Assembly: GCA_014584695.1 (NCBI GenBank) | Contig: JACTMI010000020.1 | Coordinates: 1-64,000, forward strand | Length of the DNA: 64,000 nt | From: Acidobacteriota bacterium | GTDB taxonomy: Bacteria; Acidobacteriota; Thermoanaerobaculia; Multivoradales; JAGPDF01 | Direction of reading: 5' to 3' | Shown here: positions 21,444 to 23,414 of the stretch, in pieces | Layout: every line of letters starts with the position of its first letter | Numbering within the stretch: the first letter of the stretch is position 1 | The notes under the pieces: generated by a model | Databases searched by the model: none | Told to the model about the DNA's origin: nothing | What the model saw: the letters and a program-made list of their open reading frames with translations, nothing else | Translations under genes and position numbers: made by a program

Positions 21444-21634
21444 AGGCGAGAAAGAGGCTCCTCAGAAGGGAAGCATGCGCAGCGATCACGACTTTCGTCG
21501 AACCGTCGTGCCGACCGAGTCGGACCCGCTGTCCGCACGGTGCCCGTCCTGCGGCGCCCGCTCAGCGGCGAATGCTCCGCCCCGGCTCCCTCTCGAGGGG
21601 TCTAGACGCTGCGGCGTGGGAGATCGTAAGCGGG

Positions 21635-21663
21635 TTGACAGAATTCGGGGGGGGGGGTAGCTT
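21635..21663 (+). promoter_or_regulatory. promoter with an 11-G tract in its spacer
   Basis: A perfect TTGACA (21635-21640) is followed by a 17-base spacer and TAGCTT (21658-21663). The last 11 bases of the spacer (21647-21657) are all G. Slippage in the tract would change the spacing around the 17-base optimum and so change expression, as known for Neisseria porA. Upstream of it, 21444-21634 shows nothing else recognisable. Confidence 0.55.
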
Positions 21664-21684
21664 AAGGGCAAAGGAGGTATTGCT

Positions 21685-22365
21685 ATGGGGTTGGGAAGAC
21701 TCGCAGCGGTAGCGTTGGTCGTCAGTGGATCAATCAGTGCGTCGCCGGTAGTGGCGGATGCTTGCAACCCGGAGAGCCTGGCGGCGTCTCCGTCGCTGGT
21801 CATACGAACCGGTCCATCGCCCGAGCAGGATGCGCCCGGGATTCGGATCGAGAGCGAGATTGCGGGCGTGCTGGCGATTCTCGCGAGCTTCGAGAGCGCG
21901 AGCGGGAGGCTGGACGAGCTCCTCCTCACCGCGGAGAGAGCACCGAAGTGGGAGCAGGTCGCCCCCGAGCCGGGAGCGGCACCACCGAGCGCCAAGATCT
22001 CGATCTCGAGCCCGGAGCTGCGTGGGCGGTTCTCCTACCTGATGTCGAATCCGCCGGATCCTGAATCGCTGCTGGTCGTTCGGCTCTATTTCGACGACGG
22101 CAGCGTGAGGGCATTCTCGGTCTGCGAAGCGAGCGCGACCGCGCAGCTGACCGTGACGGCGAGTGCCGGTCCGCAGGGCAAGCGGCCGGGACCTCGGCCG
22201 CCCGGTCAGGAGTGCTACTGCGTGCGCCTCGAATGCTCCGGAACCTCCGTCTGCTCGCTCGAAAAGGAGTGTTGCGGCGAAGCGTATGCGGCCTGCGCGT
22301 GCTGCTCGTGCGGCTCGAACCATAGTTGTCAGATCACTTGCCCGCCCTGCGACCAGGTGCCCTAG
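21685..22365 (+). CDS. secreted protein with Cys-rich C-terminus
   Basis: 226 residues with an ideal ribosome-binding site (AAGGAGG, seven bases before the ATG). A signal peptide ends near SPVVADA. The middle is a beta-rich domain with VVRLYFDDGSVRAFSVCE. After a Pro/Gly linker (GPQGKRPGPRPPG), the last 47 or so residues hold 13 cysteines (CYCVRLEC, KECCG, CACCSCG, CPPC), a pattern of a disulfide-stabilised or metal-binding knot. No family is recognised. The codons are a little less GC-biased than those of the neighbours. It is transcribed from the poly-G promoter at 21635. Confidence 0.65.
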   Translation: MGLGRLAAVALVVSGSISASPVVADACNPESLAASPSLVIRTGPSPEQDAPGIRIESEIAGVLAILASFESASGRLDELLLTAERAPKWEQVAPEPGAAPPSAKISISSPELRGRFSYLMSNPPDPESLLVVRLYFDDGSVRAFSVCEASATAQLTVTASAGPQGKRPGPRPPGQECYCVRLECSGTSVCSLEKECCGEAYAACACCSCGSNHSCQITCPPCDQVP

Positions 22366-22759: not shown

Positions 22760-22788
22760 TTGACTAAGTCATGGACTTAGTCTACAAT
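22760..22788 (+). promoter_or_regulatory. promoter of the Phd/PIN toxin-antitoxin operon
   Basis: TTGACT (22760-22765) and TACAAT (22783-22788) are each one base from consensus and separated by exactly 17 bases. The predicted transcription start falls at or next to the antitoxin ATG at 22795, so the message is probably leaderless. Confidence 0.7.
22762..22782. promoter_or_regulatory. toxin-antitoxin operator palindrome
   Basis: GACTAAGTC and GACTTAGTC form a perfect nine-base inverted repeat around ATG. It fills the whole spacer between the -35 and -10 boxes, so binding by the antitoxin or the toxin-antitoxin complex would block RNA polymerase. This is the usual autoregulation of type II systems; the binding itself is inferred. 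Confidence 0.7.
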
Positions 22789-22794
22789 CTCCGC

Positions 22795-23025
22795 ATGGAG
22801 GTCAGCGTGCACGAGGCGAAGACGCATCTGTCGCGGCTGCTGCGGCGGGTGGCCGAGGGCGAGGAGGTGGTGATCGCCAAGTCCGGTCGGCCGGTGGCGC
22901 GGCTGGTGGCGATCGCGCCGGCGCGGCCGCGGCGACGTCTGGGGCTCGACGCGGGGCGGGTGCGGATCGCCGAGGACTTCGACGCGCCTTTGCCGGAGGA
23001 TCTCGCGCGGAGCTTCGAGGGATGA
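22795..23025 (+). CDS. Phd/YefM-family antitoxin
   Basis: 76 residues from ATG 22795. An in-frame ATG at 22771 lies inside the operator between the promoter boxes and is rejected. The N-terminal half MEVSVHEAKTHLSRLLRRV and GEEVVIAKSGRPVARLV is the Phd/YefM DNA-binding fold. The C-terminal half (RRRLGLDAGRVRIAEDFDAPLPEDL) would wrap the toxin. Its stop overlaps the toxin ATG (ATGA at 23022-23025). It neutralises the PIN toxin and probably represses its own promoter. Confidence 0.88.
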   Translation: MEVSVHEAKTHLSRLLRRVAEGEEVVIAKSGRPVARLVAIAPARPRRRLGLDAGRVRIAEDFDAPLPEDLARSFEG

Positions 23026-23414
23026 GGATCCTCCTCGACACCCACTGCTGGCTGTGGATGGAGGCGGCGCCCGAGCGTCTCGGCGAGCGGGTGCGAGAGA
23101 TCCTGGAAGACCCGGAGACCGAGCTCCGGCTGTCGTCGGCGAGCGTCTGGGAGCTGGCGATCAAGATCGCCCTAGGCAAGCTCGAATTGCCGGAGCCGAT
23201 CGAGCGCTACGTGCCGGCCCGGCTCACCCGCGGAAGTGTCGAAGCCTTGCCGATTCGGCACGAGCACGCGCTCGAAGTCGCGGCGCTGCCGCCGCACCAC
23301 GCCGATCCGTTCGATCGCATGCTGATCGCCCAGGCGCGACGCGAGTCGCTCGTCCTGCTCACCGCCGACGCGGCGTTCGCGCCCTACCAGGTGGAGTTGC
23401 TGCGGCCCGCGTAA
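23022..23414 (+). CDS. vapC: PIN-domain toxin (VapC-like)
   Basis: 130 residues. The acidic PIN-domain residues are visible: Asp6 (MRILLDTHCWLW), Glu44 (SASVWELAIK), the Asp95/Asp98 pair (HHADPFDRMLIAQA) and Asp116 (LLTADAAF). Proteins of this COG3744-type subgroup pair with Phd-type antitoxins and are metal-dependent ribonucleases. The RNA target is unknown. It is translationally coupled to the antitoxin, and the pair sits in an accessory region. Confidence 0.88.
   Translation: MRILLDTHCWLWMEAAPERLGERVREILEDPETELRLSSASVWELAIKIALGKLELPEPIERYVPARLTRGSVEALPIRHEHALEVAALPPHHADPFDRMLIAQARRESLVLLTADAAFAPYQVELLRPA

Follow-up and report, generated by a model that had tools for sequence, protein, structure and literature searches.

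A run of 11 consecutive G residues lies between the −35 and −10 elements of a promoter that precedes a gene for a secreted cysteine-rich protein in an Acidobacteriota genome. The most likely interpretation is that the poly-G is the length-variable spacer of a housekeeping-type promoter, and that it serves phase variation of the type described for Neisseria porA; the basis for this is comparative and not direct. What is shown is that the promoter type exists, that the tract is present and recurs, that the target genes form a coherent set, and that orthologs retain the tract while its length or the spacing changes.

Promoter elements at the window locus

The window, i.e. the entire 64-kb stretch of DNA analysed, contains the following elements.

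21635..21640, + strand: −35 element TTGACA (promoter type enriched in the genome; −35 conserved in the ortholog from genome G007)
21641..21657, + strand: 17-base spacer, GAATTC followed by G11 (read off the sequence)
21647..21657, + strand: poly-G tract of 11 G, putative slippage element, abutting the −10 (sequence; architecture found at 57 sites in the phylum)
21658..21663, + strand: −10 element TAGCTT, of the lineage type TAGNNT (sequence; the G007 ortholog has TAGCCT at equal spacing)
about 21670..21677, + strand: Shine-Dalgarno sequence AAAGGAGG (sequence)
21685..22365, + strand: gene for a 226-amino acid secreted protein with 15 Cys (open reading frame; no Pfam or NCBIfam family)

The original prediction, made from the sequence alone, had listed TTGACA, a spacer of exactly 17 bases ending in G11, TAGCTT and a ribosome-binding site; all held and their positions are confirmed. 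The ATG start at 21685 is downstream of the strong ribosome-binding site, and the 5′ leader would be ∼15 nt long if transcription begins ∼7 nt past the −10, a start site that is inferred. TAGCTT matches the Escherichia coli TATAAT at only three of six positions, and because of this a strict sigma-70 consensus scan misses the promoter; the element does fit the enriched TAGNNT −10 of the organism itself. An Rfam search near the promoter gave no match. An overlapping open reading frame of 61 amino acids (21475–21660) is judged to be a chance frame.

The pattern TTGACN-spacer-TAGNNT is found in the genome of the window at 26 sites with a spacer of 17, 11 with a spacer of 18 and three with a spacer of 16. 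Other spacings yield about one site each, and there are none at 15, 19 or 20. This sharp peak at 16–18, together with conservation of the −35/−10 pair in the G007 ortholog, shows that the pair represents a real promoter type with a constrained spacer; the demonstration is statistical, without a mapped start site. Upstream of the G007 ortholog the arrangement is TTGACG-17-TAGCCT, with a spacer that is G-rich and has no homopolymer. At the window gene, the promoter is therefore conserved but the tract is not, as shown by this one ortholog, and the absence of the tract there counts against switching at the window locus.

Long G runs in the window and the genome

Within the window, no other G or C run exceeds 7, and under an order-3 Markov model only about 0.01 runs of at least 11 G would be expected on this strand. 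Genome-wide, however, runs of ≥ 10 number eight in 4.35 Mb, which is near the expectation from composition. Tract length alone is therefore weak evidence, and it is the placement that matters. The idea that the other long G runs of the genome are also promoter spacers was rejected: none of the other seven is, and that just one of the eight sits in a promoter spacer is a further point against switching. Among other runs in the same genome, 31 consecutive G residues lie between intergenic inverted repeats (L031, G000:C18:56935-56965) and remain unexplained. A C10 run (L035, G000:C41:156358-156367) immediately precedes the ribosome-binding site of the gene for a further predicted secreted protein.

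These data raise the question of whether the window G11 is a neutral chance expansion within an ordinary promoter, with nothing selected here, even supposing that phase variation is genuine elsewhere in the phylum. The near-expected frequency of long G runs in the genome and the matching promoter of the G007 ortholog, with a G-rich spacer and no tract, are consistent with this. Against it, G11 sits exactly in the spacer, abuts the −10 and precedes a secreted Cys-rich protein, as at other sites, and of the six further long-tract sites in the taxonomic family of the window, five include G9–G12 spacers before secreted proteins. Neutral expansion is thus considered unlikely.

The gene behind the promoter

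The window protein has a signal-peptide-like start, a middle region predicted from sequence to be β-rich, and a C-terminal domain in which most of the 15 Cys are located within the last 50 residues. Pfam, NCBIfam and PDB sequence searches detected no relatives. The G007 ortholog is 39–41% identical, keeps the Cys pattern and is at a different locus. It was the only ortholog detected when 149 genomes of the class were searched, and the one sequence found in the named genome collection is from the same organism. Structure prediction from the two sequences was poor (pLDDT 46).

The gene is flanked on one side by an S-adenosylhomocysteine hydrolase gene and on the other by a toxin-antitoxin pair. 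Three congeners retain the hydrolase gene and are without the Cys-rich gene, which indicates that the latter is accessory; in the two of these where the downstream side is readable, other genes are present there. The toxin-antitoxin pair (window 22760–23414) consists of a Phd/YefM-type antitoxin and a PIN-domain toxin. A perfect palindrome, GACTAAGTC-ATG-GACTTAGTC, overlaps the promoter of the pair, TTGACT-17-TACAAT, and by inference is likely to be the operator through which the pair regulates itself.

Recurrence in the class and the phylum

Across the class, TTGAC followed by ≥ 7 G before TAGNNT gives 27 matches, compared with two for the pattern read backwards. The C-tract version gives 13 matches, only two of which have ≥ 9 C, vs 12 with ≥ 9 G in the G version. 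With the stricter pattern TTGAC...G9+...TANNNT, and the reversed pattern as control, there are 18 matches vs 0 in the 149 genomes of the class, and 47 distinct sites vs four in 396 genomes of the phylum; no outgroup phylum was covered. The phylum listing contains one site twice, and class and phylum pooled give 57 distinct sites. Chance sites are admitted by the search pattern, e.g. those at a branched-chain aminotransferase gene and at tatA. Hits in G196 (L100, L121–L123) and G359 (L105, L124, L125) look like copies of repeat elements, which contain TTGAC...G9-10-CACC; they were left out of the promoter set, and 50 non-repeat sites were used for tract and spacer statistics. One criterion for a system of the porA/opc/fetA type, a homopolymer of about ≥ 9 between −35 and −10, is met.

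Variation in tract length and spacer

The tracts are 9–16 long and directly abut the −10 in 32 of the 50 non-repeat sites. Spacers with poly-G range from 13 to 23 (SD 2.2), whereas those of ordinary promoters are 16–18 (SD 0.56); only 18/50 poly-G sites fall within 16–18, vs 40/48 ordinary promoters (P 2e-6). Since the search pattern permitted spacers well above 23, the range is promoter-like and also broadened. Draft metagenome assemblies are prone to error in homopolymer length, which could inflate the spread.

In five ortholog pairs, drawn from different species, genera or families, both members have the tract, and length or spacer is altered in every pair.

G284 and G277: G11, spacer 20 vs G9, spacer 19
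G362 and G191: G11, spacer 16 vs G11, spacer 19 (proteins 82% identical)
G224 and G355: G11, spacer 19 vs G12, spacer 19
G191 and G224: G10, spacer 16 vs G9, spacer 19
G202 and G190: G14, spacer 21 vs G10, spacer 16

When the G284/G277 gene was sought in congeners, only two of 41 were found to have it. A second criterion, variation in tract length among otherwise similar promoters, is met between species only, and no variation within a strain was observed.

The protein behind a G12 spacer in G145 has a homolog in G142 (44% over 64 amino acids, E 3e-6), and the promoter of that homolog has a C11 spacer. Being a homopolymer thus seems to matter more than the identity of base or strand, and the exchange of poly-C for poly-G favours slippage that alters the spacing over a sequence-specific binding site. 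This bears on a second alternative, in which the homopolymer is no switch but an invariant element, structural or regulatory (stiff poly(dG)·poly(dC), a G-quadruplex, the site of a shared regulator), that marks a regulon of secreted Cys-rich proteins. The coherence of target genes and the usual abutment of tract and −10 would fit this proposal as well. However, tract (9–16) and spacer (13–23) vary widely, orthologous promoters are not alike in length or spacing, and poly-C takes the place of poly-G before one homolog; all of this is contrary to what a sequence-specific binding site or a fixed geometry would predict. A fixed element therefore appears improbable, and a length-variable spacer remains the preferred reading.

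At L119 (G165:C64) and L084 (G005:C393), a scaffold gap has poly-G promoter leader sequence at each of its ends, and the L119 leader copies have G14 and about G20. These duplications might reflect tract-length heterogeneity in the sample, or assembly failure or plain sequencing difficulty. A third alternative, that the window tract or its length is an assembly or sequencing artefact, can draw on these gaps and duplicated leaders and on the 31-G run in the assembly of the window organism. It is very unlikely: the window tract is embedded within a 259-kb contig, its unique flanks and the gene are intact, and tens of assemblies made independently show the pattern, with a bias in gene function not expected from an artefact.

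Genes that follow the tracts

Most downstream products are short secreted proteins that contain 4 to 15 Cys and share no recognisable relationship; ten of them gave no significant match to Pfam or NCBIfam. For a blind call, the first downstream open reading frame was picked by ribosome-binding site and distance only, and signal-like start and Cys content were scored afterwards. Signal-like starts, which rest on a hydrophobicity rule and are sequence predictions only, are found at 36 of 57 long-tract sites, the window gene included, vs one of 25 ordinary promoters and four of 15 sites with 7–8 G. Products both signal-like and Cys-rich follow 27 of 57 long-tract sites, but none of the 25 ordinary promoters (Fisher P 5e-6) and none of the 15 sites with 7–8 G (Fisher P 5e-4). 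The ordinary-promoter set (n = 25) is from the genome of the window alone, and the 7–8 G set (n = 15) from several genomes of the class. The signal/Cys rule is crude, but the contrast is large and both control sets agree. The idea that any G run in the spacer matters was rejected: sites with 7–8 G precede housekeeping genes and have a spacer of 17. A third criterion for a porA/opc/fetA-type system, a secreted or surface-exposed product, is met at the level of sequence prediction only.

At several loci (L067, L084, L096, L098, L108, L109, L110 and L119) the small Cys-rich gene is often followed by one for a secreted β-propeller-like protein of ∼265–400 amino acids. Only L119 reaches the Pfam cut-off for a β-propeller (PF17170, 6-bladed β-propeller, E 1e-6), and L098 is weak. 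Possibly the β-propeller-like protein is encoded by a partner gene of the Cys-rich gene. At L114 (G191:C5) a tandem pair of G10-TAC units is located upstream of one secreted Cys-rich gene.

Proposed mechanism and relation to known systems

In the proposed mechanism, replication slippage (slipped-strand mispairing) would add or remove G residues in the tract. A change in G number would shift the −35/−10 distance and helical phasing, and the altered spacing would change the rate at which RNA polymerase initiates transcription of the gene for the secreted Cys-rich protein. A tract of 11 G makes the spacer 17, expected to be the strongest state, and the assembled window sequence would represent that state. 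With 10 or 12 G the spacer would be 16 or 18 and the promoter weaker; two or more steps away, it would be near-off. As the device precedes many unrelated short secreted Cys-rich proteins in Acidobacteriota, it looks like a phylum-wide means by which clonal cells would come to differ in the secreted proteins that they expose or export. That the tract slips within a strain, that this alters expression and that the cell benefits are all inferences, there being no reads, isolates or expression data.

In Neisseria meningitidis porA, spacers with 11G, 10G and 9G give high, intermediate (about twofold lower) and low (13-fold lower) surface expression (PMC3639595). The Acidobacteriota tracts resemble those of porA (9–11 G) in length class and in preceding an exported product, and a step-wise length likewise predicts a step-wise promoter strength (PMC3639595, PMC3899988), here only a prediction, as no switching has been measured. 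They differ in phylum, in a lineage-specific −10 (TAGNNT/TANNNT), and in that the products are unrelated short secreted Cys-rich proteins, whereas PorA is an outer membrane porin. Neisseria opc (poly-C) and fetA also have a homopolymer between −10 and −35 (PMC2791445, PMC3960869), and the opc poly-C parallels the C11 site in G142. However, opc and fetA are single genes of a host-adapted pathogen, and the present tracts are at many unrelated genes in a phylum of mostly environmental bacteria. At the Haemophilus influenzae hifA/hifB promoter, repeat number also fixes the −10/−35 spacing (PMC3899988), but the repeat is a TA dinucleotide and the promoter is bidirectional. Orsi et al. 2010 (PMC2831843) likewise treated slippage of homopolymers as a means of regulation in prokaryotes in general; that study covers tracts in coding sequences and does not mention Acidobacteria, whereas the tracts described here are in promoter spacers.

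The analogy with porA in the original prediction is apt and supported, on a comparative basis only: the arrangement recurs throughout the phylum, avoids housekeeping genes and targets secreted Cys-rich products, orthologs keep the tract and spacers are dispersed. Of the predicted switchable expression of a surface or secreted product, the secreted product held, as a prediction, and the switching itself is not shown. One correction applies: a change of one G gives a spacer of 16 or 18, both of which are used by ordinary promoters of the genome, and graded behaviour, not all-or-none switching, is therefore expected.

Significance

No report of promoter-spacer poly-G phase variation in Acidobacteria/Acidobacteriota was found in the open-access literature searched. 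What is new, with comparative support, is the presence of a known porA-type architecture in Acidobacteriota, aimed at a shared class of products. A bolder reading, for and against which the case is evenly balanced, is that Acidobacteriota carry a dispersed phasome. In it, poly-G (sometimes poly-C) tracts in promoter spacers would switch, each independently of the others, the members of a large and rapidly evolving set of short secreted Cys-rich proteins, often with a secreted β-propeller-like partner following, and each clone would display shifting combinations. The poly-G promoter rule finds such genes without homology, and the proposal is directly testable in existing metagenome reads. Switching by promoter-spacer homopolymers is known mainly from pathogens adapted to a host, and immune escape is the explanation given there. 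If the present interpretation is true, it would suggest that secreted Cys-rich proteins in an abundant, mostly uncultured environmental phylum face changing biotic pressure, perhaps from phages, predators or competitors.
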